Below are positions 13,944 through 41,144 of a DNA stretch of 64,000 nt, piece after piece. A program made the translations under genes and the position numbers. Each line of letters opens with the position of its first letter. The first letter of the stretch is position 1. This DNA is from Prostheceraeus crozeri (lineage: Eukaryota > Platyhelminthes > Polycladida > Euryleptidae), in assembly GCA_907163375.1 (NCBI GenBank), contig CAJQUW010000909.1:310001-374000 (forward strand). The letters run 5' to 3'. Below the pieces are notes generated by a model, which was not told the DNA's origin, ran no database searches, and saw only the letters and a list, made by a program, of their open reading frames with translations.

Positions 13944-13949
13944 ATTAAA
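13944..13949 (+). terminator. Candidate poly(A) signal of the nuclear receptor
   Basis: ATTAAA about 220 bp downstream of the receptor stop codon on the + strand. Confidence 0.3.
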
Positions 13950-14746: not shown

Positions 14747-14780
14747 GAGAGTCGGAGTCCTAAACGTGACAGGACTCTGA
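14747..14780. repeat. Short GC-rich hairpin
   Basis: GTCGGAGTCCT, a short loop, then AGGACTCTGAC form an 11-bp stem (one G-T pair) in otherwise AT-rich DNA, within a locally GC-rich 90-bp patch. Confidence 0.4.
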
Positions 14781-15140: not shown

Positions 15141-15723
15141 AAGATTCAGTTTTCTGCGGAGATTACATTCCCGTGGTCCAAAAAATGAAGAGCACTTTTG
15201 AAAAAAGTCAAAATTTTGCCAATTTATATACTACCGAGATGACTCCTCTATGTAAGTATGCAACAAGTTGGATATCAAAAGGAATGAATATTTGCTAATA
15301 AGCATCCTAACCAAGCGGCAATTAAGCTAATTATCAAGGGAATTCATGATCCGTTTTATAATGGAAGTCTTCATGAAAAAGTCGACATCTTATTATGCCT
15401 TCTTGGCTGAAATTTCATATTTCTAATTCATGAAAGCAATAGCAGGTCATCAAGTTGCCAATTTAACAAATATTGCCTCTCCAAGGCTGTCATGACACGT
15501 ACAATCTGTAAAATAATATCATTTCCTTCTGCAATGCTATAATGATCAGTCAATTCCTTGTCAATTTCTTCAAAACTGCATAAAGTGCACATCTCACATT
15601 TGGAAACAATTCCGACTGTATCCCCTTTGAGTTCATTTAATGAAATCGAAAGTGTATATACATTGGGGATTTAGTAAATGCGGAGTTCCCACTCTGCCTA
15701 ACATATTTACTCTATGATCTAGC
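15141..15723 (+). repeat. Local duplicated segment, copy B
   Basis: Diverged direct repeat of 11899-12656, starting AGATTCAGTTTTCTGCGGAG and ending near ATTTACTCTATGATCTAGCC. It lacks about 170 bp of copy A. No open reading frame is conserved between the copies. Confidence 0.7.
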
Positions 15724-17118
15724 CTACTTTTCGTATCGAATTGAAAAATGCAACTAATGTTATATTTGTCATAATTAATTAAGTTCAATTATGCTGTTAG
15801 AGTATGTGCCACTATAGCTTAGGCCTACTTTCATTAGGGGCAACATGAAGATGGTTCTATATCTCGACGTAAATTTCGACATCTTGAGCACCACCATAAT
15901 TATTGCAGTCTTTACTTGATGAGTCATCGCATAGTTCACATGGACGTTCTTCAAATCGTAATCTATTTCTACAACATCAAATATAGTCAAAATCTAACTT
16001 TATAATGATTTTTCGTCTTTGATTTCAGCAAGATATTGTAGACTTGATTTCAAAATCAAGATCGGTTGCATTCTCAAACAGACATGCATGGCTCCAAGTA
16101 ATTCAGGCTATGACGCTGCTGATATCCACTTTCTCTGAAATAATGAGTTTTCGGTCTAGCAGTCTACAAGTACGAATTTCTATCAGCTGTCAACAGTTCA
16201 TTCATCCCATATTCATGCTAAATTGCTTCACTCGCCAGCTCCACTTTCTAATTCATTTGAAGCTGCTGAAGCAAGCAGTAAGACTAGTAACTTTTTCGAA
16301 TTAATGTAATACAATGTAAATTATACCTATCATACGTGAATAACAATTAATTAGAACAAATTCAGTATGTTGCAAAACATTGAATTCGTTATATTGTTAT
16401 TCAGAAAGATAGGTTGTCGATAAACACAAAAAATCCAATAAAATTTGAATATCATACTGACAGACTTACGGATTATGCACGCAATCAGAAAATTTGTTAA
16501 AGCTATGCAGCAAGTCAGCCCCCTTGTTTGAGCTATTTCTGACTTTTTTAGGACTGCACACTTTTCAACTCACATATAGAAACATTCAAGGTCTCGCCAC
16601 AATCAATTGAAACTACTCTTCAAGACTGACACATCCTAAGGATTCAAGCAGAATGATTTTACTATTGATTTTAGTGCGAAGTGGCTCTGAAATATTAAGA
16701 TGTAATAAAATAATTCTCAGTAAAATGATAAAATTTTGTGTGCTAAACCCTGGAGTACTCCATGGCTCAACTCATTTTGTTAGATGACTAGAAAATGATT
16801 TTGATTGATCATGGTGAGTCCCAGTATGCTATTGATGAGTTGAAAAGCGTGTGACAATTCGGAAACATGGCTTACTTGTTCAGCGATAACAAATTTTCTG
16901 ATGTCGTGTATAATAAAGGATCAGTAGCCTAACTTTTTCGGATTAAATTGTTGCAGTGTAAATTATACACGTTTGAATAGAGTTCAACATACTATTTTTT
17001 TAGAAATGTTATTGAATGAACTGCCGATACTATAAATATTTTTCTCCACTGGCTATCGAATGGCTATCTACTCGTCTATGAAGCCAAATTTCCAAAAACA
17101 GTGATGAATGAAATGAAT

Positions 17119-17124
17119 TTTATT
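17119..17124 (-). terminator. Poly(A) signal of the DyP gene
   Basis: AATAAA on the - strand about 77 nt downstream of the DyP stop codon, in the correct orientation for its 3' end. Confidence 0.5.
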
Positions 17125-17200
17125 TTAACAAATTGTTTGTGAAAGCAACGATATGTCTATGTGTCTGCTTCTATTTTCATGACACTTCAAAGAAACTATT

Positions 17201-17451
17201 TCAAGCCATTTTTTTGAGCTCATCCGCCCCAGGGAAATACCAATAAGTTCCTTTGACGTTTTTGGTGAGCCTCATGATATCATCACTATGACCATCTTCA
17301 CCTGCGCCTACCATCCGATCCAACATGTACTCGAAGTTAGCTGGGGATTCAGCATAAGCGATAAAGAAGAGACCAGATTCCCCACTCAAATTTCCGAATG
17401 GCTGAGATTGGCGAACAATCTCGAATTTTTTCTTCTGTTGGAAGGCATTTC
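17201..17451 (-). CDS. DyP peroxidase exon 7 (C-terminus)
   Basis: Acceptor TTTCACTATTCCAG, phase 1 in. It encodes [20 protein letters not shown] with the distal Arg301, then [20 protein letters not shown] and the C-terminal [16 protein letters not shown] before TGA. This is the best-conserved C-terminal block of DyPs. Confidence 0.94.
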
Positions 17452-20400
17452 CTGGAATAGTGAAAATTTCGATTAGGACAAGATCATCTAAATTGTATGT
17501 ATTTACAAGCAGAATTTTAATTTATCAGAATTTTTTTCTTGTTGCGACACCTATCGTTATTTCCGGCCGTCAGTTAAAATGCAAAAATTGTTGACCAGCT
17601 TGAATTTTCATGGTATGAGACATTTGCACGCACGCCTGTAAATGGTCATCATAGTGAAGTTCTTTGATTGGTGGTGCAGGCATATTATATCAAAGCAAGT
17701 AAGTAAAAGAAGCATTTTCTTCAGCGAGTAGCAATATTCAAAGCAGTTGTCAGATCTGTCATTCATTAAGAAATCAAGCTTAAAGAAATTTGTGCCATTC
17801 TTGACAAAAGATGTTGTCATCATCCTTGCCATCAAATAGCATCATCAAAGCGATATTTTCTCTTTCTTTTGAGACTAGTGAATGCTCAATAGCATAGGTT
17901 TCTCTTGATTTGACAGCATTTTTGACTGTCAAAGAGATTCATTGAGATAAAGTAACTGCAAATTAGGAAAGAACAAAGCAAAAAGTTGAAATACATTTCT
18001 AAGTTCAGCAGCATTCCTCAATTCTCATTTTGCGGAGGACTCTGAGCAACTGCAATGACTCATAGAAAACCGAAGCTATGGAGGAAAGGTTTACTAAACC
18101 ACCTAAATCCATTCAAAAATCCTAGTAAATATCCTTCTGCACACTTAAATAATTTCAGGCAAGGAATGTAGCTGAGCATAATAACTATCACACTATAAAG
18201 AATATTGGATAGCAGGTATGGACAGCCTTCCATACCTGTTCCAAAAATGCATAACTTATTTGGACTTTAATTGACACAGCGCAGTCGACAACTACAACAT
18301 CATTTCAATCCTTAGGGGATAATGGTGCATTTCATCACAATTCGAACAGTTATGACAATATTCTATCCAATTCAATCGATGAAATTAATTCAAATGACTT
18401 CAAAAATATACAAACATAACTGACATTGAAAATATAAGATTTTGTGGTTTTTTTCTAAATCTGAAATTAAGGACATTTCTTGACGCTGGGAGGCTTGTAT
18501 CTGATTTAAAATGCTGTGACGGTTTAACGTCACTACTCCTCCCATACGACTGGCTTGTATGGTGCTGACATAGTCGGACTTTTTTTACCAAGAGCGTTGT
18601 GATTTCTTAGCCAGGAAGCCTTAACTGTCGACTTTCAATGACACCTTCGGGGCGCGACCTCTGGACCAAAAGATCGGTATGCCAAGCACTTAACCATTGT
18701 GCAACAGATACCACTATTATTCAACATGCAGGGTGTTTCAAAAGGCTTCATTAAATAATTAGCGAATTCTATGAAAATCTTTATATATTTCTACGGCATT
18801 GATTTAATGTTTACAGTACATTGAAACGTTTAATGTACTGTTCGTGAAATAAATTATGATAAACCACAGATATTTTACTTTACACATAAAAAATCCTCGT
18901 TAAAGATTTAATGCATTCGTCCCCAACGAGGACTCATACATTGAATATGCAACTCGTATTACATTGTGTAAGTAAAATATCAGTGCTTTGTCACACAGGA
19001 TCACAATATTGCACTTCCTGGTATTCAAGATACAAGTAGTGTAACATTACTTTATACTGTCGATAGTAGCACCATCAGTTCCGAACTAAAAACGTCACAG
19101 CATGATAAGTGAAGACAAATGTTGAGAGAACACATTTGCGTGTAAAAATGCTAATTATGAGAAGGTAAGCTATATTGCAAACTTCATATAATATTCCATT
19201 ATATAATATAATAATATTTTACTATGTGTAGCAGCTGAGCCTTCTTTCGCTAAGAATCTCAAAAAAAGAGTGGATTGGGAAAATTATTAACTATAACGAG
19301 GACTAGTGTAAAGAATAGCTAGAAATGCTGGTAACCAATTACTTTATGTCATAGATACATGTATATAGCACGGAACTTATGAATCAAGCCTTTAAGCGAG
19401 AATACAATTTTCAAAAAATGAATGGTCATCTATGAAATGCCACAGCCCGGCCATAAAGAATGAGAAAAGAGCAGTCAGTTAGAGTGATGGAACGGTGTTA
19501 AAAAGATCATGATTCGTGAAAATTAATCAAAAAAGGAGACAGAAGTCCACTGACACAAAATGCCTTTACTTGCATTACATCTGTCCAATTAATGCAACTT
19601 ATGTTTCGGGGGACAGTTCCCCTCATATGCACCTTGCTACGTGTCATCTCCAAATTATTCTAGACAAAAGGGCATTATGTGAAATAACAGAGCAATTCCA
19701 GCCAAATCTCATTGCTAGCAAGTTATTTACCTCCAGTCATCCGTGCCACATGTGAAGTAATTGATTTTCGTGACTGTTCAGTACTGTCATTCCGTTGACG
19801 TCCGACCCAGTTCTCCATAGTGCGATCTGAAAATGACAACCAGTCATGAAAAATATTCAACCTATAGAAAAGTGGGGAAAGAACGAACCTTTTTCAGAGC
19901 TGATGACATGATGCTGGTGCAGCCACTTTTGAGTGATCTGGAATACAAAGCGGTAGAAACTATATCAGAGTATTATACTATTGCACTCTACTGTGATCGA
20001 AACAAGAAAACATGGAGAACACAAGGAAACTAATAACTTCCTGCAAAGTGGAGAAAAGCTCTTACCACACAATGGTACCATATAAGGTGTAGTTCCGCCA
20101 AATTATACTTATAGTTTTAATTCGCTCAATCAATGAATTTGCAAAGTCGTCGCTAAAAATGCATTCATTGAGACGACTGTATGGATTGTCAGACGTATTT
20201 AAACGTAAAACTATACGAATACATTGGAATAATACGTACATCTGCTTCCCGAACAACAAAAGCATGATGAGAGAAAATCGGCGTAATTCAATGCCGATTA
20301 CTGAATGTAATCCTCTTTCGCTGTAGAGGAATATGAAATGGTTTGAAATTTGACTTCAGTTATCAAGGAATAAAGATTACGAATAAGATCAAGACAAACA

Positions 20401-23400
20401 TCGACCTTGCTATCAACCGATCAACTAACTTCTTGATTTTGCAAGTGGCTTATGTGATGAATCCGCTACTGACTAAAAGACGAACTTCCATTTTACCGGC
20501 AATTATCATACGATTGATTGTATTCTATTAAGTGTCAATCATGAAGATATGAGCACTACTACACTTGTTAACTTTGTACATGTTAACACAATTGGTACAA
20601 GGTTAGCCCATCCATAGTCCATGTATCTCAACCTTGAGTTCAGTGAACTTTACACGATTTGATTACGTTTTTGAACCATACAATTGATGTGTATTTAACT
20701 AGAGTAAAACAGCGCCGATGTGTATAGTTGGGTTTCTAGATAAATCAACAATTTCGCAAATTACATATGTAGGCCCTACCTTGTTTTTCGCATAATTTCT
20801 CAAGCTATTCAACTTGTGAAGATTCAGCACTGCTTCGTACAGTTTACGAAAATGAATTTAAAATTAGTCCGTTGTCAACAGGTGAAAAATCGTCAGAAAC
20901 GGTTTAGATGAATTTTCCACAGAGACTTTCTCTTCAGTTCACTATGCTGTTAAGTAGAAGTTAATGAAAGACAAACATGTATACACGCAAAATATGATGT
21001 GCCGGGTGTCCTGGATAGCCTAGCTCTAAAAATATCTGCATGAGTTTATAATGTAATTCAAAATTCCAAAGTCGTTAAAACTAAACAGCGAGACTGTTCA
21101 TAGTTTAATGAAGTTAGGGAATGATGATTCAACATGATGCCAAATTGTCTAATTGATTCGGAATTTTCCGACCGGAATGAATCCTGAATCCTTGGTCATT
21201 TTCTGCTCGAATCTTATTTCTAGATCTGCACATGACCCGAGCAGATCTGATAGGGCTTTTTAGAATGATCTACAGATCATGGAAGTATAGGAGGAATTTT
21301 CTTTAGTAGAACTAAGTAAAATATACCAAGCAAGGAACTGGGCCACGCATTAGTGACCCGAAATCTTCATTTTCCTTTATTCGAGTTGTCTTCACAATCA
21401 GTGGTATTTTATTTTACTGAATTTTCACCCCTAGCACAGCTATGAGCCATGATCGAAGCTAGGGGTTACTCAATGAAAAGTAACAAATTGTATTATTTTA
21501 AATAAATAAAATAAAAAAATAACAGATCTTCTAATCTGATTAAGCTGTCCCCATCAGAAACCTATTCGCACGCCTCTTGAAAGTATCAAGATTATATTGG
21601 TCAGGGAAAGTGGTCTGGGGAAGCTGATTCCAAAGCTGTGCCGTGCGAACAAAGAAGCTTTTCGAGCGACTCACAGTACGTGCGCGTTCTAAGCTCACAT
21701 TATAGCATGTGAGTGCATTAGCTCTGTGTGTGCTTCTGGAGAAGATCTTAGGTTTGGGTACGCACTCATTTACTGCAGAGCTGCTTCTACCGAAATAGTA
21801 CCTGTAGAAGAGACTGAGTGAAGCAACATCCCGTCTGACGGAGAGCGGCTGCAACTTGATAGCAAGTTTTTCACCCATGAGATTCTTGACACGTTTCTCA
21901 ACCCGTTCAAGGAGGTTAAGATGTGTTTGTGGGGCGCCTGCCCACAGATGACAACAATACTCCATCAGAGGACGAATAGTGGACTTGTAAAGATAGCAGA
22001 CAGTCTGTGGTGGAAGATAGCTGCTGGCACGATAGAGACTACCAATGAGTTGAGCTGCCTGCTTGCTAATGGATTGGATGTATGGTTTCCATGACAAGTT
22101 TTTCGTAACCGCCAATCCAAGGAAGGAGATGGAATCTTGTTCTCTGATCCTATTATTTGACATCTTAATGCTATGATGATCATCATCTCCTTCAAGTCGT
22201 GACTGCAGAATACTCTGAGTTTTGAAGGATTGAAGGAAACAAGCCAATTGGCGCCCCATTCTGAGACCCTGCGTAAGTCTTCATTAAGAACGTCGCATAA
22301 CTGCTGACGTTGCTGAGTGTTTTTAGCGAGTCGCTCATTGGAATTGAAAAGTGTTGTGTCATCTGCATATATCACCAATTTACTCACTAGGCAGTCTGGG
22401 AGGTCGTTGATGTACAGTAGAAAACGAGTGGGTCCCAAAATTGACCCTTGAGGAACTCCTGCATTGACTAACTTGGTGGAAGACTTTTGGCCATCTAAGA
22501 CGACAGATATCTGCCGGTCACTAAGGAAAGAAGCAAGAAGTTTGTGGAGTTGATCAGCAACTCCATAGGACTTTAGCTTCATAAGGAGTCCCTGATGCCA
22601 GATTTTATCGAATATTTGGTCGCAATTATATATTTGCTGACTAATAACGGCTGAATACAAGTTACAGGCCAACTTCAGAACCAACGAAGAATAACCATGT
22701 GTAGCCCTCCTCGCGACCACAGAAAGAATTAGTTCTTTCAGAAAATAGTGTTAGATAATTCCCAATTCTGATACGCAACTTAACATACCGACAACAACCA
22801 CTATCAGCATTGGTCTGTAGAATCTAATGCAATTATCTTTCTTTTAACGAGAAGCTACCTCTCGATTTCAAATCTAACTATGTTATGATCAGACAAACAA
22901 AATTTGACTTTTTTTCTTAAAAATGTGCTACATTTGATACACATACATTTTTACCAAAATTGCAGATAATGGATGTACCGGAGTGTCTTGTTTATAATGA
23001 ATACAACAGTACAACAAACATTTATGAATGTCTTTCTTATTACAAAGAGGATGCGCAACTGGCTTTGAGGAGTCTGCACCTTCATCGAGCTCCATTCGTA
23101 CCTGAAGTGGCAAATGATATTCCGACCTGTATTCCTTTACAACAAAGGACTAATAAGCGCAAAAACCTACTTCCTTTTCGCCGTTGAACATTAATTAAAT
23201 GCCTTTCCAATCCCTTGGTGATTTGCAAGGTATAGGTTAAGCGGATAATTCACTGCAACTTCGCAGTTTTGCTATGAGACTATTATAGGCAACAAGTTGA
23301 GAATAACCTGAAAACGGATGCAGCCTGACCCAAACAAATGACCCGAATGCTACATACATACATGTACATCTAGGGCATTTAACTAATCCTTGACTCTGAC

Positions 23401-26400
23401 TACATTCCTTAATTTTGACTATATCCTACATGAAAATATCAGGCTTCTCGCTCTTGCTGTTAGCATTTTCATTTCACACTTTTGTTTGTCACGACATCTA
23501 CATCTAGTTAAAGTCGGCTCTTCTTCTCCTAATGTGCGCTTGAAACAAAAATTGTAGACATCGCTAACTCGTGGTATTAAAAAGAAACGCTTGGAACATC
23601 TCACTCTTCGTTCTTTAATCTATCAATGCAGGCTCTATAACAACACGACAATAAGATACAATTCAAAAACTGACCAGTTCAGTAGAATTAAGTGAAATAC
23701 ACAGATTTTTTACTTATAAACTTCGATATTCACATGCCCAATTTCGGACCGAAAGATGCTTAAGTAGCCTACACAAAGTTGATTTTACGATAACTTTATA
23801 CTTTGCATTGTTCATCAAATTAACGATATAATTGAGCTTCAATAAACATTCATCATTCAATTAACATTTATACGACATAGAATTTGCGATGCACAGTCAC
23901 CTCAGGCTTGCATTCAGAAAAGTGTTTCATGTTATATTGTTTTGTCTTAACAATTTCATACGCAACTGATTGAACATTGAAAGTTCTAAAGATTTTTGAA
24001 ATTTTTCAAATATTTAAGTATCCAATATTGATGAAGAATCAAATATTCATAAGTTTGAGAATTGAAGGTTTTGATAATGGCTATCGTAGCGGCCGATGAT
24101 ATTTCTGATTGCAATATACAGTTGGACATTGCCATGAGAAGAGCATTTCTCAAAAGGCCTTTTTTTTGCTGCATATTTTCAGGTGTGGAAAAGTCGTGAA
24201 TATTGAGATCGTTAAGGACTGGGCCAAAATTTTCCGAAAACTCCCCATTCACAACTCTGACTGGCTTCTTATTACTTAAGATGATTATCCCTCAGTCAAA
24301 TCAATTTCCATTTCTACAATCTTAATATTTTATCAACAGAAATTAAGAAATGTACGTTTCCTTTTTGCAAGTAAATTGAAATATAGACTATATGCACAAA
24401 ATCTAAGTCACATGTCGAATGTCATATGTCCAGAATTATGCAATAATTTGCAAATTTCATCAATCAGTCATATTCAAAGAAAGCTTTGAGAAGTACAAGT
24501 ACCTAAACATGCTATATAAATGATCAGAATCAAACAAATTAAACAATTAAATTTGGCGGTAATTACCATTGACTTCTATAGATACAATTGAGGATCAAAT
24601 TTAACGGAAATCACCAGGATAAGTCATATGCGACCTGATGCCTGTAGTAGGTTTCCAAAATTACCTATTACCCTGTTTGCAAGTGGCGGAGGCCATAAGT
24701 TGGTGCAGCGGGTATGAGGGAACTATGTGCCGTTAATGCAATCCTAGCTTCTCAAGAGGATTATGAAAACGGTTTTTGAATAACACGCATTTTCAATGAT
24801 TTTGTACGTAGAACATACATACTGATTAAGAGCTGTCGCACAATGTATAACCAAATGAAATTCATGTGCTTTACAGACATTTAGTCAGTAGGATAGTCGC
24901 ATCTATCCTGACTACTTCTTAACAACAGAAGAGCTGCAGTCTGGCGTGCAGTCAGTTCCTAGTCATATCGCTGTCGTTAAGCAAATCAAACAAACAACAG
25001 AAGATATTGCGGCGATGAAGTGATCAACTATTGTAAACAGCTAACGAACACATAAGGCGTCAATTTATAGTCGCAGAGTTTTATGTAAATTGAGGTGCTA
25101 CTGCTGCGTCCATCATATAAGAAAATCGTTAGTTACTTTAGACAACCTTGATTCTTCAGAGCCAGTAAATAGATTGTTGGTGGAGTGGTATAGCTACTGT
25201 AATACTTATTACGAACGGAATAACATCTCAATCAAAACACTCCCTCATTGCGTTCAGTCGTCAAAAAATTGGCCATTAGTATCATTTACATTAAAAGCAC
25301 TACTTACACACTCATCGTGCATGTATTTCCATAATTGTTTCCGGTCTTATATCTGATACTACATACAGAGGGGCTACAGTAATTAGGAGCGTGAATCTGG
25401 AGAAGTAAAGATCACCGACTTACTCAGGATACATGGATACTTTTAGTAATTTTTAATCTTTCATAATACCAACGTTCAATTCCTGTTTATGACAGAACTG
25501 AAATAGGACATGAGTCATCTACATTATGTAAGAAATAATAGATAAACCGAGCTTAATATCGTAGTTGCTGCTGTTGCATTGAACATTGCTGCCACTGACT
25601 TACAACATCGCAATTGAATCGAATATACCGAACGTGAATTCGAAGCTAACATTCTGATAAGCCCCGCTAACGGCCATAAAAGTATATAATGCGCATGTAC
25701 CTATTAATTCTAAAATTGAACTGATCACTATCACTTACGAGCGCATGTCCGACGAAGAATCATAAGTCTTAAGTTGTTTGTTGCCAAAACATGGACAAAC
25801 ATTGGATAAACATGAACCTATAAACATCATGGTGACATGTGAAGAGAAAAAAAATCACAAATCGAATCGACCACATCTAGCTAGATACCATTAGTCAATG
25901 ATGAATAATCAGCTGTACATTGCCAGCAGGAGAGAAACAAAATGTAAAAGTTGTACTCATCATCAAATCATGTCTAGATACAAAAATTGATTTAAAAAGG
26001 GTCAATTTCCTAAGTATAAGTCGTTGCATTTACAGTTTAAGCTTACACAAATATCAGGTTATAGGACTGTTCAATTGGTTAAGGACCGCGCATCGGTGAG
26101 AAGAGCAGAGAGTCCAGGGTTCGAGTCTGTCCGCCTCGGGAGGCATCACCATTCTCACGAGGGTCTATTAACAATAGCTTGTGAGTTGCGGGTAACTGGC
26201 CCACCCCTAGGTTACTAGCATGGTTTTGTATCTTGGGTAAGACAGGAATTAGCAGAAAAAATGTGATTTGGATGCATAAAGGATTACTTCATGCATGACA
26301 TTTTCCATTATAAGGAATTGAGGGGAATTTGCAATGCCACTTCAAAACTTCGCACCATGAATTATGTTAGGTATTGCGACTTATGAGAACTCAGTTATAA

Positions 26401-29400: not shown

Positions 29401-32400
29401 GATACCGATCCAGGTAATGCTAGATCTTAAGAAGAATCAAATTGCTGAAAGTATTGTGTTTAAGATAAATTCTATGGATGTCATTTTGTGATCATGACAG
29501 TCTGTTTGTTTATATGTAGCAATAACATCGGTTGCAATGACGTTTCCATTATCTTTAATAGCAAATCTGCCAAGCTGACGGCTACGAGGAAAATCACATT
29601 TCTGTCTCCTCTAGAAGATACCTGCCTTAAAAATGCAATCATAATAATAAAAAGGACAAATTTCGCTATTAAGTGTGCCAAAGTCAGAATTAGCTGGATC
29701 TACATAAACGAATGGGATCTTGTGATGTTTTGACGCTCCGTAACTTGCAAGACGATTGGAAGTATAACTGAATAATTGTCGTTTTACTATGTTAGGAAAC
29801 AATTCACAAATAGAAAATAATAAGAAGCACGTACGCGAATTTAGGAAGAAAACGTCAGTAGCTCTCGGACTGCATTTACAGTTATTGTATTTTCCCTTTA
29901 AATATAAAATAATTTTGATAAAAAACTTGCGGTGTATCGCCTTAAGACAAGAATCTACGACTGCTACATGTTGCACCAAAATAGTTACTCTTAAGATCTA
30001 GCGACTTTTACCTAAATCAGTGCCTGAATGATCAGCTGAATTGACCATCAACAAGCCGCTTTTGTCCTTTCCAGTCTCACTAACTTAAATGGCATTAACC
30101 ACAGAAATCTGACTTTTCGCTTTGTCTAAGATAGTGAGACTGGAATGGACAGTATCAGCTGCTTGACTGGGCGCCGATCTATGTCAATGTTACTAGAAGA
30201 GTAAATATTTAACAGCTGTAGGTTTTTGTCGCAGATCGGAATGGTTCAAGAAATTTTATCAAGATGATTCAAAATTTGAAGAAAAGTGATAATATCAGTG
30301 AATGACTAACAAAGCACATTGAGAGGGTAATGATGCCTAACCAAGTGTCAACCATGGGAAGGCGGCCTCGTTTAGGTCTCGCTGTCATGACAGCGCATGT
30401 CTACAACGTAGTATTGTTATCAATGATGATGTCCATTTTATGTCCAAAAATCTATGACGTTTTTCATTTATTTCACTCGCAAAAGAAATCGAACCACTAC
30501 ACCAGAGAACTGAAAATGGTCGAACGAGAGGCATAGATAATGATATAAACGAGACAATTAAAAGCCCGGACAAAGACTCTGAGCTGAGACTATATTGTAA
30601 AAGTTAAAAAGCTGAGTAGATACTCACCGTGTACTGAATCATTGGATTATTTAGCTATTGACTTACCCCCATTACATTAGTATTACTAACTCTACTCCAC
30701 GTTTAACGTCCGTTGAATCCCATCTCCTGGGGCTGGACGGTTGATGGCTCTCCTCCATTCATCTCGGCTGACACCGAGTTCTTCGGGGATTCCTATTTTC
30801 TTCAGATCTTCTGAGACACATTGACGCCATGTTCTTCTTGGTCTTCCGACGGCTCGACGCCCCGGGAATTCCATGCTTTCCACTCTGCCCAAGCAGCTTC
30901 CCTCAGCTCTCTTTACATGACCGAACCATCTCAGACGTCCTCTTCTAACCCGATCTTCCAGCTCCTTCAGACCACACATTCTTGCCACTTCCTCACTTGA
31001 TCTTCCGTCGCTCCATTTTGCTCCTGCCATGTATCTCAGCATTCTCCGATCACATGCTCGCAATACTTCAAACAACTTCTTCTGTGTCAAGGAACATGTT
31101 TCTGAGCCATCGAGGCACGAGGCATTAAATCATTATGTTTGATTATTTTCCAGTTGCTTCACTTCCTGTGACATTAGAATCCATGGGAACAGACTCAAAA
31201 ATAGCAATGCGAAAATGAAGTAGCTCAGCTGTTGAGCACTCTCCTTATTCGCCTCTTGATAGTTACAAAAGGAAATTCAGAAGTTACTATTTAGAAGGGA
31301 TTTATTGAATATTCCCATGAAAATCATCTTAATTATTAGTAAGCTGAATATCTCTTTCCTAATTAGTCAAAATATGTAAATTATCAATACAATGGCACCT
31401 ATGTAAGTATTTCTCACGACATTATCTGGCTGTCATTGAAACTTTTGGTCATGCATAGCAGTGGAAACTGCATGAAAAGTCAAAATTCGCAGGGTATCGC
31501 ATGATTCAGCAGCAGCAGCTCAATTACTTCTACCAAATCTGCCAGTTGTCGATCTGAATTAAGTTTCGTAATCTCATGCGGTCACACTTTACGGCATTAT
31601 ATCATTGCTATTCAATGGGCCTGAGTCACGCTTTACATTGTTGAGGTATCAGTGAGCTGCGACTAGGTCATTGCTGTCAATGGTGTGCATTTGAGACCCG
31701 AAACATAATTTTCACTTTTATCTTCATGATGGATGTTTCACAAGACATCCATTGTCATAAAGGAAAACTGAAATATAAGAATACTTACACAAAATATGGT
31801 TGGTTCTGTTTAATGTGATTATGTTCGGTCAACTGAACAAGAGTAAGTAACGACACTGACATCCTAAGTAGAATGAGGTCAACTGCGTTGTAGCTAACCG
31901 CCATCTATCAAAACCAGAACCCGGCTCATATCAATAGGTTAGATCGAATCAAACGGATTGACGAAGGCTAACCTGATTCAGGTTGATTAAAAGGGGCAAG
32001 CAACAACCTTGAAATCCATTTCAAAATCACGGTTATTTGATGCGCTCTACCTCGGTGTGGTTGATACAACCATTGTCCAGTTGGAATATCACAAATAATC
32101 AGAATCCGGTTGGTTCAAAGACCGAATAGGCGTGAAAGAAAGCAGCTCTGCCATATCAATCCAATGCAGTATGAGTTCAATTCAGAGGTCGTTGGAAAGA
32201 CGGCCAATGGCTACCGTGAATGGTTTGTCAACAAACAATACCTGATCTTATCAAATCTGTAGCTGACGTTACCTCTGTGTCAAAAAACCATTCTTCTTTC
32301 ATCTACCATACTATCGCCCAGAATTCGAGCGCTTAGCGCGTGAGGTCTGCGATCTTATTCGATGTCGACTTCATTATCTTAATCCTTTCCTGCTTTTATG

Positions 32401-35400
32401 ACTAAAAATCCAAGGCATGATAGCAATTGCTGCAAGGGTTGTGATGCCGCCTGCCGATTCTCAAAACATTTCGCTGTTCGCTCGACTGCCCGCGTTGAAC
32501 ACAGTATGTCAGAAGAACGGTTATACTAAGGGCTAGACACGAGGGACCTCCAATATCTGGGCACCTTCCAAAAATGGGTCCCTCAGGGAGAAGATAAATT
32601 TCCGAGATCCACTAATGCTGCGTAATCCGCCGTCATCCCGCACATTTGATCACTTGCGATAAACGCTACAAGTTCTGTGATGAGATGCTCAAACTTTCCA
32701 TTTTAAAACGTACTTGATTTCGGTTTTCACTGCCAATTTGAGAAAGTGTTTGTATTAGTGCTAAAACCACCATTGTGTGTACAGAAAGAGGTTCTCTTCA
32801 ATTTGAGACTTTTGTGACATTCTCTTATTGAATTCTCCTGATTTCCACTATTTATGATTTATGCATTTATTTTTGCATCTCTCTGTTGATCAGTCCCGGT
32901 TGGTTCTGCTTCATTGTCGATGTCATCTGCCGTTGTCAACATCTCCGTCGAAGTAATGTTCGCATTCTGTCTAAATGTCAGATGCAATTTCATTCATAAT
33001 GTAAATTTACCAAGAGAAGGGGAGTGAACATGAAATATGAAATTTGTTTTTTTTCAATATCGTTCTAGGCTGTTGATCTTGCTTGTGTACGCAACTATGA
33101 ATTCGCTTAATTTAAATGCCTGTAAGTCTGGGCATGTACATGCAATGTAGATACGTCAACTATTAAAGATTGGCCGTCATTGGGATAGAACACCTATTAG
33201 AAGTTTGAACCCTTCCTAAGCATCAAAATTGATTGATCATTCATTTCTTATCTATCATTTTTCGATAAATAAATAATCCCAACATCATAACTTTTTCGAG
33301 TACTTTTAAGCATAGTATCTGCTTACACACGTGCACTCACACTGTTTCACTTCATGCATTTACCAAACAATCTGTGAATATTCAAACTTTCAAATGAGTA
33401 AACCGAACACTGGAGCACAAAATCCTATATCCTTGATACTAATGAAAGAAATAACTGTTGAATCTGATGGGAATATGTGGCAGTTGCAAATCAATGGAGA
33501 GAGGGAAACCATCGCTCCGAAAATGCTTTTTGATTAATACAGAAATTTCTACGAGTATTAGGTTTGTAAGTATTAAACAAGATGTTAGGATCCTCGCTAT
33601 CCTCAACAATATCAATATGATAGAATTTGTGTTATATGTCTTAAAATCCTCAAGGATATACAGAGAAATCGGTGCCATGAATCATATTCATGGCATGCAA
33701 TTCCTGACTTACACCCAGTGCCGTCAAAATATTAACTTCAGTACCTATACTGTCGCTTGTTCTGTTTTGTTATTAGGCTAATAATATAGATCAAACATAA
33801 ACGTGCTCAGCACATCCATACGTCAGAAAATATAGGTAACAATAAGTAAAAATAGCGACCTATTAAGCAGTCCAACAGTTTCTTCATTCATTCTATATAA
33901 TAAAATAAGCATCGAGGAAAAGCAACATCCACACTCTACGCTAGTGCCACAATTGACCATTAGGGAGAAGCGAAGCGAAAAAACTCTTTCGAAATGCATA
34001 GGTCTATATCGGTGTCTACGGATACTTTAAGATGACGTGCAAAGCTATATTGATTTGGTTGAGGTCCAACACCAAGCTTGAAGCTGATTGGATGACTACA
34101 AATCGAAAAAAATCGTTACTTTAAAAATTTTCAAAGTTCACTTTGCTTGGGGTCTAGATTGAATATTTTGTAATAAACGAACATGGCAAAATTTCAAGCG
34201 AATTGGCTAATATCTGCTGGTCCAGCATCTGGAATCAATTCTTCATAGCATTTTTTTTGTACCATAATTCACAATTATCAATTCCAGAATATATGAAGTC
34301 ACAAACGTCAAGCAAAATCAGTTAAGTTTTACATGGCATCCTATAGTATCCGTCGACATCGAAATAGACCCCAAGGATTTCAAAATTAAAAATGCTTCTC
34401 ATTCCTATTGTACAAGTCCATGGATGTTTTCCCTGTTTAACAGGTCTAGATGACCATGGATCGGAAGGCTCGATTAATAATACCAGCCGTTCATCTTTTG
34501 CATGGCTTTATGGTATGTGGTTTATACCATTTCATTTATCGCTGATCAACATTTTTTATATTGATATTTGCGAATAAATCTAATGAAATATAAAAAGTAA
34601 TATAATGTGTAAATAGCAGAATACTGTCAAAATTTTGTCATAATTCAGTCAGATTAACTGGGGGAGAATTTTTTTTGAAATTGTGATACATTTTAGCGAG
34701 ACAGTGCACCCTAAATCTGAATTTTTTGCGGAATTGTGTGACTCTGGAACTCGTATGGAAACAAAAAGAACTGACTTCCTTAAGAGCTATCATGAGACTA
34801 ATTCCTGTTCAATTAAGAACGATGTCATAAAAAATTGACTTGAAAATGTTTTACAGGAAGCTTCAACTAATCCAGACTATCCGGTTCTTAGACAATCTCA
34901 CTTATTTGTCGATATGAATGGACAACCTTTTCTCACTTGAAATGGTACGTGTAGTTTGAGAAGTTACATAAAATATATGATCACATATAAATCATATAAT
35001 AAATGCAGCAAAAGACGAAGCTATCGCTAAGTATCAACGGTCTGTTGAAATTGTAACCTTCAAATTGTTAAATTTTCGCTTGATATTTGAATTTGAAAAA
35101 AAGGAACTGAATTGTTACACTGAAATGTAATCACATTATGCAATACGTAGAAATTGTATTTAGTGCCATATTTTCTACCAGATCTGAGCGATATAAAGGA
35201 CAATTCTTTCCACGCATTGTTCGTAATTAACCGAAGTTAGCAAAGAACAGACTATTGAAACTGAGAAGTCTGATGTTCGTCAGTACGTAAACAGTTATAA
35301 CTTTCATTAGTATCAAGGTTTAACAAAACACATGAGAATACAACACACATTCTGCAAAAATTACCGAAATCCAATTTCGCATGGCCCATGAAATTCATAT

Positions 35401-38400
35401 CTGAAGAGATTCATTTGTTTTTCAATGGCGAACTCGGCCTATGTCAAGAATGATATGAGGGACTTACCACGTATGCGCCTCCGTTGTCTTTGTCCAAAGC
35501 AACTCGACTGCGACTGTCATCATCGGCTGGATTCTCAGTTCCTACAGACAGAAAAATATATCGAGACAATGAATCCATTAGACATAGTGTTTGAACAACT
35601 TACCGTCAATGAAACCACTAAGATCTCGACCATATTTATAGACCCAACCGTAGATGTCTTCGAAATTATCCACACTTCCTTTAGGCAACTCACGCATGAT
35701 TACCTGGACCAATTCGAATAGTTTGCTTTGTTGGTGACATTTAGCGTGGACAAAAATATCACCAGCTGAAAATGCATATGCACATCGACTGACCAGATTA
35801 TGTACGACTCAAGAAAGTCATGCACAAAAAGCGTTGTGACAGGCAACTGCGTCTGTCAATCTTTCAGATAAATAAGTAATAAAGAAGCATTAATCTATCA
35901 TGTATAAGTCATACAAGCGGCACCATAAAATCACAATAAATTAAAGTTGGTCATCAATCACAATTTTTGAACCTGAACATGGCCAACGACCCGACTCAAC
36001 CTTTTCTACTACAACTTTAGACCCAACCCGACCAGGGCTCGAAACTGATGAAAATCAAAAAGTCAAAAAATTTGACCTATCACCAAAAGTCTGTAATTCT
36101 ACCATCAAAGTGTCCTATAAAGTAAAAAGAAAATAGAATGAAGTCAAGGAGGCCTACAACACTTATTTACACCAAACTTATGTTTTCTTGATTTCATGTT
36201 CTGCACATAGGCCGAGGCCTACACCTACTAAACTTCAAAAAGATGACAGATACATTTGGCATTCAATGGGTTGAGCATATTAAAGCTAGTTTTCATGTAA
36301 TTAAACATTGGTCTTTATGTTATTTACCGAGGCAACAGCCTTAAGTCAGTGCATGTGCATACATGTAAATAAGCAAGAGCAGGTGCGCGTATAGGACTAT
36401 AATGATGTAATAGAAAGTTGTCCTCAAACCTGAACAATTTAAGCACGAAAAGTCCTTGCAGGCAAACTGGAACTCTGCAATCTTCATGACTATATAATTA
36501 TGTAGATATGTGGTGATTTGGACTAGTGGCGCTAATGTTTTAAGTTCTGATCGTGTATACGACAGCATACACAGTAGACTTACGTCTGATAGATCCGCAA
36601 ACTTTTTACGTTCCAGCAGGCCTCCAAGAATACACAACTCTTTTTTTAGGATAAATGTAGAGCGCTAGAAAAAACTTTAACTTATTTATGTGTTTTAATA
36701 CAATTTGGCCAATTTTACTGCCGCATTTTACATTTGATGTAACAGTACATATTGACTAATGCAGAATGAAAAATGTAGATTCAGATAAAGGCCTAGCTTA
36801 TATATCTGATATATTAGCAATCAAAACTGCAGCAATTCAAGAATCAAAAGATGAGAATGAAACTGGACATTAAAAAAACAATTCCTGTATAGAGCTCATA
36901 GATAATGAACTGTTATTCACAGATTTTGCGTCATGTAACAGATCAACTTGTCAATCATAAATAAGGGGCGGGGGAACTTTATGCTCATTCTCTATAAGCA
37001 ACCAGATTTGCTCTGTAAACTTGAATGAGTAAGGTAAAAAGTCCATTAATTGGCATTAAAGCTGGAAAGATAGAAGGCAAGAATAATTGTCTTCTAATTG
37101 TAGCAAATTTTCTCATTTTACCGTCTGAATCAGAGTGCTCAAGTAAAACATTGTGCTTTTTGATTACTGACTGAAAGTGAACTTCATTCATGCTTAGCAA
37201 CATCTTCTTGGACTATCTGTATTACAAACATATTCGCTTGAAATAATTTAGGAGACGTTATCTTCAGTTTCTTAGGATTCGGTAAAAATTTCCGGACTTA
37301 AATGGTTCAATGCTCTAGTGAGCAGATAAGGTGGAAGATGACAAATTGATAATTGTTACAATCTGACGAAACGGTAAAACTTAAATACAATAAATAAGCA
37401 ATGAAATAAGGATTTCTTTATCATTTAACAATAAACCAATAAATGTCATTTTCTTCGCATGTTCATATTTGAAGAACAGATTGGATAAATCATGTATCAA
37501 ATTGATCAAGTTTATTTCAGACCATGAAAGTCATCCTTTGAATTGTTTTTTCAAAAAACGCTTTCTCTATATTAATCTTCGACAGACGAGAGCCTTGATT
37601 CCTTTGAACCGCAAACCAATGTACAATAAGTCCTTTGTGAAATACTCTGTACATTCTTAGTTGTCGAAATTGCACGTTGAACCTCTATTGTCATACCGCT
37701 TTTCGTATTGACATCAATTAAGTCTTTATTACTCTCATTACTATTTATGTAATCCGATTCAGGAGAGCTAAAGGTGTGCTGTCACTTGCCCAAGGCTAAC
37801 ACTCAGACCGTGGAGGCAAGGAGCGCCTTGCGCCATCCTTCATGAATTCTTTCTATTCATGCCACTAATCATTTCGAATCGTATCATATATCAGATCATG
37901 CTACAAGAAACATTTCATATGTATTGCAAAGGAAAGATTGAGGGTGTTGTTTTTTCGATGAAATAAGTAATATTGCAGCAAAAATCACAAGTTCTGGTCT
38001 TAAAACAGTTGCGAGCGAGACACACAGACATGTGAAATTACATGAAGGATGAGTCAATTTTCAAACAGTAACGTTTTCAATGTATTGCTCCACTATGTCA
38101 GATACTTTCAGATTTTACCAAGTGACGATTGGCAAAGTATGCAATGCCGAAACTCCTGCCTCTACCCCTATGATTTTAATGCATTTTCTTTCGAATATCG
38201 AGACCCAATAATTTTGACCCCAAAAAGTCAGAAACGTCGGAAAAGTAGGAAAATTTCTAGCCTTGAACCCGATACAAGCATCCCCAATGAAATGTGGCCG
38301 ATTTCTAATCAATCAGTTGACTTGTAATACGTTGTTTGGAAATATACGTTGCTCGGATGATAGCATAAATAAGCATATTCCGTTAATCAGTAAGAACTTC

Positions 38401-41144
38401 AATTAGAATAGGGTAAAACAAAAAGAAGACGAATGGTCAAGTACACCAAAAATTTATTTCGTAAATATTCGCTGTGTGAATCAGTTTAAACTCCGAAAAA
38501 TTGGCGCAAGGATTTCGATATTGCGTGAAAAAATACGAAACCTTTATCTTTGCAGAAGAAACTGCAATTAATGTAGATGTCTCTCCTCACAACCTTTCAA
38601 AATTGTTCAACAAATATTTGTGTTGCCATTAAAGTAAATTGCTAACTTAGTGAGTCCATCTTCAAAGAGCAATCATATCATTTGATAAAAATTTTATGCG
38701 CTAACCAATATGTCAAGATACATTAGGTTAATAAGATTTTACTCCCTATTAGGTACATATGTAAGTCATGCATAACAGGGATCAAACATTTGAAAACCCA
38801 CTGAAATTCTCAGTAATGCATCTCGTATTTAATAACAGATAGATTAGTGGATTTTTCAAAGGCTGCGATATTGAACCTTTTGATATGTGAAAACTTTTTT
38901 GTTAGAATCCAGGCATACACATGACAGTAGCTTTCACTCGACCTATCAACCATCAAAGTTAAAGGCAGCTGCACCACTCATGTTGAAGTTTGACTTCTGA
39001 GCTCGATGAACTCATCAGGCTGTTTCGAATTCATCCAGCCGACTGTTTGAGCAATATATTTATCAATGAGCCACGGCACGATTGACGTGAACAGTAAGCT
39101 TTCATAAGCGATTAACACGTGATTCAGATTATGTATACGCCGTCAAGGTGACTTGCACAACTGCACTCGTGACCTCAGTAGTTATACCACCACATCGATT
39201 GACATTTTTACAGTCTACTTTTCTAGAAAGACCGATGCACGCTATGTAATGAGTTATGTCATTTAAGCAATTGACGCAACACGTTTTTACATCATCATAA
39301 CAAGGAATGGTGAGCATGAAGTGGTGAAAATGAGGTAGTTTAGTGTGTGTAGAGAACTTACCGAAAAAATCATAACTCAAAATAGAAGTAGTTCGAAAAT
39401 TAGGAGATTCTCAATCGAGGTTTTAACTTGAATCCAGATCGGTGTTCGAACGGCTGATTCCGAAATTAAGCAAATGATAACTTGAAATAAGAGCACGTGG
39501 CAAAATTATCCGTAAATTTTGATCTTGTACGCGATTCTATGGCACCAGTTATTAATTGCACAATCAGAACTATATCCACTTGGCTACTAATTGCTAAAAA
39601 TCTGAGAAAACAATTTGCCGCTTTGTGTTTTCTGTATGATGCCACTATTTCACATTTTTTATTCTTTTAGTCGAGTGGGATCTCTGAATTAATTTCTCTT
39701 TAAAAATGTGGTAATCTGCTAACATCATCTAGGTCAAGAATTATTACTTCTCAGATTCGCGGCAAACTCCCTCAAATATCTTCATCAATAGGTTTTTTAA
39801 ACTTACGTGAGCTAGGCATATCTCCAAGGGTACCACGTCGATGCGGATAAGTAAAATTATGTTTCGCCGTCTTCCCTCCAATCTGACGATAGAAATTGGG
39901 TCCAAATCCAACACCAGCAAACACTTCATCCTCTTCGTCTTTCATACTTGGTGGACATACTTCATCTACGAATTTCTGCAGCTGACTCATCACTTTCGCG
40001 CATTGGCGTGCAGGAGCGTCAGGTTTAAGGCTAATCCAAAGATAAAGTGCATGCTCCTTAGTACCAGAAATAGCACTTGGTTGCGGCACAACAGCAGCAG
40101 CAGATATAGGCTGCGGAATATTCTCCGCCATGACCTGAGCTACAGAACGCTCATTTTGCTTCAAATAATAGGCAACTCCACCTGCTGCAGCAACAGATGC
40201 TCCTCCAAGCAGTAAGGTTGCAGTTCTAATACGACTTCCACCTTGTGAAGATCCCCTTGTGGAATAGGCACGAGCTGCCGCTGTCAAAATAAGATTAGAC
40301 TTCAAATGAACATGTATTAATTTATCTCGAGAATGCGTGTATGGAAGAGAAAAGTTTAGTTCGGCAGCTAGAACGAGTTTCTGCAGGGAGTAGGCCGAAA
40401 TTCAGACTTTCACAGAATGATGCCCATCCTGTGAATATTGCGAATCTGTATGTCTGCCGAGTTCTATCTGGCTTCTCTTCTGGTCAAACAAGATCAAAGA
40501 AAAGCACGGAAATACAATGAGAAACAGACTGCAGTTTTCGGTTTAGTCAGATTTTCTATGCCTTCACTATTAAGAGAAAATTACTAAGACTAGAGACATT
40601 ATTATCAGCATGCAGTGTCTTCGGGTCATTTGTTACCATGTGCATGAGTTGCTATCACACTTCCGATTGATGATGTAGGCCCACGTGAGCATGTGGTTAA
40701 ATGTAACCATAATTGGCCTAAAAGTTGTTTGCCACTACTAGGATGCTTGCGAGATCTGAGTGTGTTGAACTCTATAGACAAAGGTACATCAGTATGATAA
40801 AAAATGACCTGAAGATATTCCATGTCAAACAATTGTGACTCTATATTAAGTTTTTCTAGAGAAAACAATGAAAATCTGATTATTACCGAAAATAAGTCTG
40901 TTTCTCATTGAGTCTGCACGCATTTTTCTTTGATCCCGTCTAACAAAAGGAACCGGATAGAGCTCGAAAGACACGCAGATTTTACATTCTGTGGAAGTCT
41001 CATTTTCGGTCACATCAGCTGTAGAAACCCGTTCCAGCTGCAGGACTAGCTAGAACATATTTCACCATTCGACTTCAAAATCAGTAATTTTTTCATGATA
41101 ACTGGCAAGATAACGAAATTAGGGTTAGTTAACTTACATGCCAT
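17201..41144 (-). CDS. DyP-type (dye-decolorizing) haem peroxidase, mitochondrial-type N-terminus (whole gene)
   Basis: Seven - strand exons (41144-41138, 40280-39807, 35765-35604, 35541-35468, 19937-19889, 19826-19731, 17451-17201) sum to 1,113 nt and join in phase into 370 residues. DyPs use H2O2 to oxidise varied organic substrates at a b-type haem. Key residues are present: distal Asp214 in SGFIDGTENP, proximal haem ligand His281 in TSHVAR, and distal Arg301 in [30 protein letters not shown] and [20 protein letters not shown] are also family blocks. Residues 1-21 lack acidic residues and are Arg/Ser/Ala-rich, and 22-42 form a hydrophobic segment, so mitochondrial targeting with an inner-membrane anchor is inferred. 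No residue essential for haem chemistry appears missing. Length fits a DyP domain plus leader. Confidence 0.93.
17452..19730 (-). other. DyP intron 6 with a SINE-like insertion
   Basis: GT-AG intron of 2.3 kb (donor GTAAAT). A tRNA-like SINE head lies at 18645-18710. A - strand frame near 17580-17700 was examined and rejected as an exon. Nothing else is recognised. Confidence 0.7.
18601..18712 (-). repeat. tRNA-derived SINE-like unit
   Basis: On the - strand, GTTGCACAATGGTTAAGTGC (A-box region, complement of about 18686-18705) is followed about 30 nt later by CCAGAGGTCGCGCCCC (B-box, complement of 18649-18664). It is non-functional as a tRNA but fits a SINE head. The A-box resembles that of the SINE at 26060. 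Confidence 0.5.
19731..19826 (-). CDS. DyP peroxidase exon 6 (haem-ligand exon)
   Basis: Acceptor GTCATTTTCAG, donor GTAAAT, 96 bp, phase 1 both sides. It encodes [20 protein letters not shown] followed by [11 protein letters not shown]. His281 of SHVAR is the expected proximal haem ligand. Confidence 0.93.
19827..19888 (-). other. DyP intron 5, 62 bp
   Basis: Very short intron with donor GTTCGT and acceptor CATTTTCAG. Splicing is required: reading through would put a stop (TAG in CTATAGGTT) before the haem-ligand exon. Confidence 0.8.
19889..19937 (-). CDS. DyP peroxidase exon 5
   Basis: Acceptor GCTTTGTATTCCAG, 49 bp, phase 0 in and phase 1 out. It encodes [16 protein letters not shown], matching the conserved '(V)xxQ(K/R)WxH' block that follows GGAYV in DyPs. 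Confidence 0.88.
21428..21465 (-). other. LINE 3'-UTR terminal stem-loop
   Basis: Complementary 8-mers CCCCTAGC (21428-21435) and GCTAGGGG (21458-21465) flank a 22-nt loop about 20 nt from the 3' end of the LINE. The same structure occurs at 47558-47595. Confidence 0.6.
21540..22613 (-). pseudogene. LINE reverse transcriptase, 5'-truncated and frameshifted
   Basis: It covers the RT core from [20 protein letters not shown] through [20 protein letters not shown] and the catalytic YADDTTLF motif to the C-terminal [20 protein letters not shown] and stop. Compared with the 47.7-kb copy it has lost one T in a T-run near 22215, which breaks the frame, and gained three bases near 22173. Everything N-terminal to the first catalytic Asp region is missing. 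The element is dead. Confidence 0.9.
22928..23270 (-). repeat. Diverged protein-like repeat, copy 1
   Basis: Resembles 27300-27500 in the same orientation. On the - strand it reads [10 protein letters not shown], stop, [11 protein letters not shown]..., then [20 protein letters not shown] and LDEGADS, with two in-frame stops. I do not recognise the family. Confidence 0.45.
23270..26040. other. Intronic stretch, nothing recognised
   Basis: AT-rich sequence within the large DyP intron. There are short unsupported frames on both strands and no motif, repeat pair or RNA gene that I can identify. Confidence 0.5.
26055..26290 (+). repeat. tRNA-derived SINE
   Basis: The A-box region TTCAATTGGTTAAGGACCGC (26070-26089) is followed by the B-box CAGGGTTCGAGTCTG (26115-26129) at tRNA-like spacing, then a non-tRNA body with GGGAGGCATCACCATTCTCA. 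The acceptor stem does not close, so it is not a functional tRNA. It is the clearest SINE in the window. Confidence 0.65.
26925..27000 (+). repeat. Weak tRNA-like fragment
   Basis: CAGTCAATCGCTGGTAGAGC followed by ATTGG resembles a tRNA D-arm and anticodon stem start. The B-box equivalent (AGCTCAAATCATA) is degenerate. Confidence 0.25.
27300..27530 (-). repeat. Diverged protein-like repeat, copy 2 (open frame 27110-27529)
   Basis: The frame reads [40 protein letters not shown], then [11 protein letters not shown]. The same residues are recoverable from 22928-23270 despite stops there, so the shared ancestor probably coded in this frame. It could be a transposon protein or a duplicated host exon. 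No family is recognised. Confidence 0.45.
27540..30060. other. Intronic stretch, nothing recognised
   Basis: AT-rich sequence with a short 9-bp-stem palindrome (GTCAGTACTCATGTACTGAC near 27654) and overlapping open frames on both strands at 29481-30001. Those frames show no domain and are probably chance. Confidence 0.45.
30064..30150 (-). ncRNA. miRNA-precursor-like hairpin (candidate)
   Basis: The arms 30064-30087 and 30127-30150 are 24 nt each and pair with two mismatches (GTCCTTTCCAGTCTCACTA against its complement) around a 39-nt loop. The dimensions match animal pre-miRNAs, and it sits in a host intron. The strand is assumed to be that of the DyP gene. A small MITE is the main alternative. 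I do not recognise the mature arm. Confidence 0.35.
30692..31120 (-). pseudogene. LINE ORF2 C-terminal fragment (5'-truncated)
   Basis: The frame reads [20 protein letters not shown], then [31 protein letters not shown] and [19 protein letters not shown]. This 'RMLR-x-ML/AG ... WFGH(V/I)(K/C)R ... GRPR+W' layout is the C-terminal end of many non-LTR retrotransposon ORF2 proteins. RT and endonuclease are absent because the copy is 5'-truncated near 31120. The frame is still open over about 140 codons, so the insertion is fairly young. Confidence 0.75.
31130..33980. other. Intronic stretch, nothing recognised
   Basis: Part of the 15.5-kb DyP intron. The segment 31.9-32.6 kb is slightly richer in G+C and may be decayed repeat, but no frame, motif or partner copy was identified. 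Confidence 0.45.
33987..34386. mobile_element. MITE-like element with long terminal inverted repeats
   Basis: The left end (about 33987-34050: GGTCTATATCGGTGTCTACG then GATACT) is mirrored at the right end (about 34326-34386: AGTATCCGTCGACATCGAAA then TAGACC) with about 20% mismatch over roughly 60 bp. The total is near 400 bp with no coding capacity, as expected for a non-autonomous DNA transposon. The exact ends and target-site duplication are unresolved. Confidence 0.55.
35468..35541 (-). CDS. DyP peroxidase exon 4
   Basis: Acceptor CTGTAG, donor GTAAGT, 74 bp, phase 1 in and 0 out. It encodes [20 protein letters not shown] followed by GGAYV, the conserved GTENP and GG(A/S)YV blocks just after the distal Asp. 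Confidence 0.94.
35542..35603 (-). other. DyP intron 3, 62 bp
   Basis: Very short intron splitting the FIDG/GTENP junction, with donor GTAAGT and acceptor CTGTAG. It is exactly the length of intron 5. Confidence 0.88.
35604..35765 (-). CDS. DyP peroxidase exon 3
   Basis: Acceptor TGCATTTTCAG, donor GTAAGT, 162 bp, phase 1 both sides. It encodes [20 protein letters not shown], then [17 protein letters not shown] ending at distal Asp214. The + strand frame covering this place is a shadow. Confidence 0.95.
35766..39806 (-). other. DyP intron 2, 4.0 kb
   Basis: GT-AG intron. At 36031 CAGGGCTCGAAACTGATG looks like a hAT-type terminus, but no matching partner end was found. A 92-codon + frame at 38049-38327 resembles no family I know. 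Nothing else is seen. Confidence 0.65.
39807..40280 (-). CDS. DyP peroxidase exon 2 (leader, membrane segment, N-terminal DyP fold)
   Basis: Acceptor TTATTTTGACAG, donor GTAAGT, 474 bp, phase 1 both sides. It encodes the Arg/Ser-rich leader ([14 protein letters not shown]), a hydrophobic segment ([20 protein letters not shown]), a linker, then the first DyP strand ([20 protein letters not shown]) and [20 protein letters not shown]. It ends [11 protein letters not shown] before the split Pro161. Confidence 0.94.
40281..41137 (-). other. DyP intron 1
   Basis: GT-AG intron of 857 bp between the 7-nt coding start and exon 2. No other feature is seen. Confidence 0.7.
41138..41144 (-). CDS. DyP peroxidase exon 1 coding part (start codon)
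   Basis: ATG GCA T followed by donor GTAAGT. Joined to exon 2 it gives [12 protein letters not shown] in phase. The ATG context (AGTATGG) has A at -3 and G at +4. It was chosen because it supplies a start, the right phase and a plausible mitochondrial presequence; starting inside exon 2 would need a non-ATG codon. Confidence 0.75.

Follow-up and report, generated by a model that had tools for sequence, protein, structure and literature searches.

A spliced nuclear gene for a putative class B/P-like DyP-type peroxidase in a flatworm genome

In a stretch of flatworm genomic DNA (hereafter the window, 64,000 nucleotides in length), we identified what we take, with a probability of roughly 0.6, to be a functional, single-copy flatworm nuclear gene encoding a class B/P-like DyP-type haem peroxidase. 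What DyPs do physiologically is still largely unsettled, and those of animals are hardly studied in the literature that we found.

Schistosoma mansoni was reported to possess DyP-type B genes, which were ascribed to transfer from lower eukaryotes (PMC4420034); a schistosome DyP appears among ovary-preferential genes (PMC11879061), and schistosome DyPs are named among candidate molecules from microarrays (PMC3512318). A gill protein spot of Mytilus edulis with a mass of 30.4 kDa was matched by two peptides to a Trichoplax adhaerens DyP record (PMC5302490), and a Porites proteome annotation lists a DyP (PMC7006924). A report from fish consists of transcriptome annotation only (PMC6160557) and was left out as evidence. 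The initial annotation had called animal DyPs scarcely described; the reports from S. mansoni, M. edulis/T. adhaerens and Porites make them less of a novelty than this implied. In the literature covered, searches for animal DyPs returned no paper on the present gene, which is a further member of this known, little-studied animal set. Its nearest relative in print is likely the S. mansoni DyP (Smp_314200/Smp_312400), which is also a flatworm protein of DyP type and belongs to subfamily B according to PMC4420034. The DyP of T. adhaerens and of the M. edulis gill is likewise of animal origin.

Results

Seven exons join to a predicted 370-residue protein

The DyP gene lies on the minus strand between positions 41144 and 17201 of the window, and its seven exons (Table 1) join in phase to a 1113 nt coding sequence for 370 residues. 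All six introns (857, 4041, 62, 15530, 62 and 2279 nt; phases 1, 1, 1, 0, 1 and 1) are bounded by GT and AG, and no phase conflict arises, in agreement with the exon number and protein length proposed at the outset. The reading frame is intact, and we predict that the gene is functional.

Table 1. Predicted elements of the DyP gene and associated features (positions in the window).
Feature	Position	Strand	Remarks
Exon 1, coding part	41138..41144	-	ATGGCA-T, strong start context, donor GTAAGT; predicted from signals
Exon 2	39807..40280	-	Residues 3-160: basic N-terminus, hydrophobic stretch (about residues 20-43), linker, N-terminal DyP domain
Exon 3	35604..35765	-	GDIFVHAK to GRDLSGFID; Asp214 codon 35607-35605 (GXXDG motif)
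Exon 4	35468..35541	-	25 residues
Exon 5	19889..19937	-	16 residues; carries His246
Exon 6	19731..19826	-	Proximal haem ligand His281, codon 19752-19750
Exon 7	17201..17451	-	Arg301 (17413-17411), Ser303 (17407-17405), Asp344 (17284-17282), stop codon
AATAAA polyadenylation signal	17119..17124	-	Starts 77 nt past the DyP stop codon
LINE fragment (RVT_1) in intron 4	21404..22613	-	96.3% identical to 47534-48745, 26 kb away

The weakest element of the model is the 7 nt coding part of exon 1, which is predicted from signals. When the 8 kb upstream of exon 2 were screened for segments running from an ATG to a donor (GTRAG, ATG within 150 nt, right phase), seven candidates were obtained, and 41144-41138 alone combined a purine at -3, a G at +4 and the donor GTAAGT. 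One other candidate had the same start context; it lies inside a transposase frame and its donor is GTAAGA. We rejected a trans-spliced leader that ends in AUG and is attached directly to exon 2, as it would open the wrong frame and run into a stop after 40 codons.

Over its first 49 codons, exon 2 shows GC contents of 0.61, 0.63 and 0.22 at the three codon positions. This contrast of 0.40 was matched by none of 407 randomly drawn open 147 nt frames of the minus strand, and the N-terminal extension therefore looks coding. Met53 is a second well-placed methionine (G at -3 and +4, judged by eye), and initiation there would give a product of 318 residues that lacks most of the extension. Much of intron 1 is filled by an imperfect inverted repeat (67%; 40357-40639 and 40794-41048) that ends near exon 1.

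The protein belongs to the DyP family and retains the haem pocket

The predicted protein matched TIGR01413 with 132.6 bits (cut-off 100.5, E 1.8e-38), Pfam Dyp_perox_C (PF20628) with 102.3 bits (cut-off 20, E 3.1e-29) and, over residues 119-188, Dyp_perox_N (PF04261) with 26.5 bits (cut-off 20.4, E 7.2e-6). A PDB search returned 42 distinct sequences at E <= 0.001 (best 1.6e-37), nearly all named DyP, YfeX/deferrochelatase or peroxidase, together with one TyrA and one uncharacterized Streptomyces protein. These scores exclude a chance match and substantiate the DyP identity first assigned to the gene. We infer the fold of the protein, with two predicted ferredoxin-like domains, from its sequence.

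We aligned the protein with 97 relatives, comprising 96 bacterial, plasmid or viral-contig rows (of 98 fetched) and the fragment of Dictyostelium discoideum DyPA. Arg301, His281, His246 and Asp344 were identical in all 97, and Gly211, Asp214, Gly215, Glu217 and Asn218 in all 96 other than the DyPA fragment, which is without that part. The GXXDG motif is present as G211-F-I-D214-G215 and the distal arginine as Arg301; Asp214, His281 and Arg301 stand exactly where they had initially been placed. At the third distal position the window protein has Ser303; of the 97 aligned rows, 51 have Ser there and 46 have Asn. The haem pocket of DyPA consists of Asp149, Arg239, Ser241, Leu253 and Phe255 on the distal side and the pair His222-Asp281 on the proximal side (PMC8230527); Asp214, Arg301, Ser303, Leu315, Phe317, His281 and Asp344 of the window protein align with Asp149, Arg239, Ser241, Leu253, Phe255, His222 and Asp281 respectively. 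With these residues conserved and mapped on DyPA, the active site is complete for a class B mechanism. Klebsiella variant chains in the PDB carry changes relative to the wild type at the positions that align with Asp214 and Arg301.

At the top of the PDB matches stand 9li4, the 6fks group and YfeX 5gt2, and 6FKS and 5GT2 are named as class B enzymes (PMC8230527). The predicted protein is nearest to the class B/P (YfeX-like) DyPs, and its Ser303 sides with the YfeX-like enzymes. E. coli YfeX (5gt2), Klebsiella DyP (6fks) and 9li4 have the Arg-Gln-Ser motif in common with it; they are about 30% identical to the window protein and, unlike it, bacterial and without an extension. DyPA (7o9j) shares class B/P, the distal Asp-Arg-Ser-Leu-Phe set and the proximal His-Asp pair, with 39% identity over 127-128 C-terminal columns, but DyPA has Asp in place of the first Gly of GXXDG (PMC8230527), where the window protein has Gly, and DyPA is cytoplasmic without an extension whereas the window protein has a predicted one. 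About 75 residues precede the DyP core in the predicted gene model, which departs from the usual class B enzymes, since these are described as being without N-terminal extensions (PMC8230527).

We also considered that the protein might be an encapsulin cargo. Encapsulin-cargo DyPs (such as L002, L004 and L006, each adjoining an encapsulin shell gene) share the DyP family and the haem residues, but in these rows have Asn at the third distal position, where the window protein has Ser303, and a C-terminal extension with a GSL-type tag. The window protein ends with ...ADELKKMA and has no such cargo-loading extension; on these two grounds, this role was ruled out.

The N-terminus has some features of a mitochondrial signal

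Within the first 45 residues there are five basic residues, four of them among the first 22, and no acidic one. The sequence RAY-ST near the start resembles a mitochondrial processing site and might be one, although a cut there would have just eight residues before it. Among 19-residue stretches, the most hydrophobic has a Kyte-Doolittle mean of 1.42, below the usual cut-off of 1.6 for a membrane segment, and the helical moment is low (best 0.35 among the 14 windows computed). Thus, of the mitochondrial-looking N-terminus with one hydrophobic segment that had been described, the basic, acid-free character and the single stretch were recovered, while the stretch proved weaker than a typical membrane segment. 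We tentatively favour a mitochondrial location of the protein; that its mature form is membrane-anchored seems rather doubtful.

The gene resides in the nuclear genome of the host

The genome searched comprises 2,048,925,868 bases in 14,165 contigs, and the gene lies on a contig (C735) of 577.5 kb, of which the window covers positions 310001-374000 and the gene 327201-351144. A search of the whole genome with the DyP protein gave five matching places, all within this gene, and the C-terminal DyP family model gave a single match. The N-terminal model alone found no match in the genome contigs, which split exons would explain. As far as protein and family-model searches see, the gene is single-copy.

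Intron 4 contains a LINE fragment (Table 1). Of 2710 candidates obtained with a 901-base piece of it, 40 were scored: the piece itself and 39 others, which are spread over many contigs and are 97-98% identical over the whole 901 bases. Near-identical copies on many contigs identify the DyP locus as host DNA, and the spread of such copies over the genome indicates that this LINE family moved recently. The GC content is 46.1% in the DyP coding sequence and 37.69% in the window, with CpG observed/expected ratios of 0.81 versus 0.83; published values for the polyclad Prostheceraeus crozieri are 44.5% for the average exon and 37.64% for the genome, with a mean intron length of 5,263 bp (PMC9469890). 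The composition of the gene is like that of the host. Its introns and the host LINE in intron 4 rule out bacterial contamination of the locus and uphold the earlier reading of a resident, spliced nuclear gene.

A COX1 family search matched a contig of 100.7 kb (C6227), on which mitochondrial genes occupy positions 8458-18297. COX1 alone was identified by the family search; four further frames were named by eye as COX2, ND6, ND5 and COX3. The order is COX2, COX1, ND6, ND5, COX3, all on one strand, which also carries 19 of the 20 tRNA calls. Read against COX1 residues that we take to be conserved, AAA encodes Asn (DR-N-FNT), ATA Ile, AGA (AGR) Ser and TGA Trp. AAA as Asn, ATA as Ile and AGR as Ser constitute the echinoderm/flatworm code, and genes on one strand favour a flatworm; both observations support the animal host assumed initially. 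On the same contig, a COX3-like stretch is repeated four times and the COX1 frame is extended at both ends; the contig may be chimeric, a nuclear copy or expanded mtDNA.

Elsewhere in the assembly, a 6 kb stretch (C8477:761690-767676) contains intronless ORFs for ALAD, coproporphyrinogen oxidase and ferrochelatase at a GC content of 0.30-0.32. ORFs of at least 150 aa cover 79-98% of this sequence, and the host has separate, split copies of the same genes; C8477 looks like a bacterial contig, from a symbiont or a contaminant. DyP searches with the protein and the C-terminal family model gave no match on C8477.

No close bacterial relative is found among the sequences sampled

A single-protein search of genome contigs for DyP relatives yielded no match; an alignment-based search did find relatives. 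Among the best 80 of 586 bacterial candidates, identity in the best segments was 27-36%. The 101 plasmid records were all less than 60% identical (32.7% across 78% of the query for the best of those listed), and within the tree set whole-length identity reached at most 32%, over 301 columns. Since identity to the bacterial relatives sampled stays at about 33% or less across most of the protein, the data demonstrate neither a recent transfer nor a donor; the comparison with bacterial proteins proposed in the initial annotation thus delivered DyP relatives and a tree, but no donor.

A quick tree (97 rows) gave the window protein the longest branch (3.71) and joined it only to another long branch, a pairing flagged by the tree program itself. 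A careful tree of 37 hand-picked rows and 134 C-terminal columns placed it outside the bacterial groups on a long branch, and not inside class B. In contrast, D. discoideum DyPA nested among gammaproteobacterial YfeX proteins (99/95); it shares 59% identity with a Pantoea protein across 130 columns and was apparently acquired by transfer from gammaproteobacteria. The free tree suggests separate origins of the window DyP and DyPA, although a constraint uniting the two as one clade was not rejected (p-AU 0.241). Grouping the window protein with the YfeX clade was not rejected either (p-AU 0.411). An alphaproteobacterial (mitochondrial) ancestry found no support, the corresponding constraint being borderline with a p-AU of 0.056 and three magnetospirilla only. 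Overall, the gene appears to stem from an old acquisition or inheritance rather than from recent transfer out of any bacterium sampled.

Among nine viral contigs (IMG/VR) with a DyP relative, the gene is near the contig end in seven (L090-L096), probably in bacterial flanking sequence, and internal in L097 and L098.

Discussion

The window protein is very probably an active DyP peroxidase. His281, held by Asp344, would ligate the haem iron, and Asp214 and Arg301, surrounded by Ser303, Leu315 and Phe317, would split H2O2 to give compound I, which could then draw electrons from a small reductant or via surface radicals. Less certainly, the basic, Ala/Ser/Gly-rich N-terminus may direct the protein to mitochondria; the weak hydrophobic stretch might then be cut off or hold the enzyme at the inner membrane, and the DyP may remove peroxide beside catalase and the usual thiol peroxidases. 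Catalase is present in the genome, split over three places on one contig. The DyP would therefore add to catalase and not replace it, and a catalase-less flatworm that uses DyP instead is ruled out for this genome. The genome family search found no match to PF00141 (plant/cytochrome-c type peroxidase), which short split exons may escape. Loss of the haem pathway, which would have highlighted a haem-degrading role, was ruled out because the genome carries split-exon genes for ALAD, coproporphyrinogen oxidase and ferrochelatase on contigs C11526, C12629 and C11335.

Were translation to start at Met53, or the extension to go unused for import, the product would be a soluble, cytosolic class B peroxidase like DyPA. 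The strong start context of Met53 (by eye), the cytoplasmic location of DyPA, the description of class B as lacking extensions (PMC8230527) and the mass of the mussel spot, which is close to that of a bare DyP core (PMC5302490), all fit such an enzyme. We nevertheless consider it somewhat unlikely, given that the 49 codons between the beginning of exon 2 and roughly Met53 have a strong coding composition, that the acceptor of exon 2 is good and a start exon matches it, and that the first 45 residues of the extension contain no acidic residue. Retention of the distal Asp and Arg, and of the proximal His-Asp pair, as required for peroxidase chemistry, makes it very improbable that the DyP fold was kept without peroxidase function, for haem or porphyrin binding or iron release, even though YfeX has been called a deferrochelatase (PMC4263509) and the genome has the haem pathway split over exons.

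As to the source of the gene, we attach almost no weight to a contig derived from prey, a symbiont or another animal. The assembly does hold the bacterial-looking stretch on C8477, but the DyP gene is spliced, its contig is long, and the LINE in intron 4 has its 39 other full-length matches among the 40 scored candidates. Quite improbable, too, is a recent bacterial transfer into this flatworm lineage with introns gained later: six introns, a host-like composition, the low identity to all plasmid and bacterial relatives sampled and the longest branch of the quick tree speak against it, and the schistosomes also have a DyP, so that any acquisition would move back before the split of both lineages if the genes are orthologous. 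Such transfers do seem to occur, as the position of DyPA inside the gammaproteobacteria indicates, and most subfamily B sequences are proteobacterial, with transfer stated for the schistosome genes (PMC4420034). An old acquisition or inheritance is thus the reading that we prefer. In a more far-reaching version of it, the window gene represents an ancient animal lineage of DyPs, passed on vertically, whose members are mitochondrial and membrane-anchored, arose independently of the Dictyostelium enzyme and disappeared from many lineages; the flatworm and schistosome genes would then be orthologues, and the transfer from lower eukaryotes that has been published for schistosomes would be wrong. 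We regard this combination as unlikely.

Together with the schistosome gene, the window gene, from what seems to be a free-living flatworm, opens the published account of transfer into schistosomes to a direct test, and with it the question of where flatworm DyPs come from. Should the N-terminus truly serve as an import signal, a peroxidase would be present in an animal organelle in which DyPs are unexpected, beside a retained catalase.

Other features of the window

ARAGORN called no tRNA in the 64 kb window; by eye, tRNA-like stretches resembling SINEs were seen at 26080-26240 and 18590-18720. A LINE reverse-transcriptase frame of 519 residues (RVT_1, 2.3e-39) lies on the minus strand at 47674-49233. 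Two Tc1/mariner-like transposase genes are found on the same strand at 45392-46407 and 53374-54470, each split over two overlapping frames; the downstream frame of the second is without a Pfam match and was named by eye.
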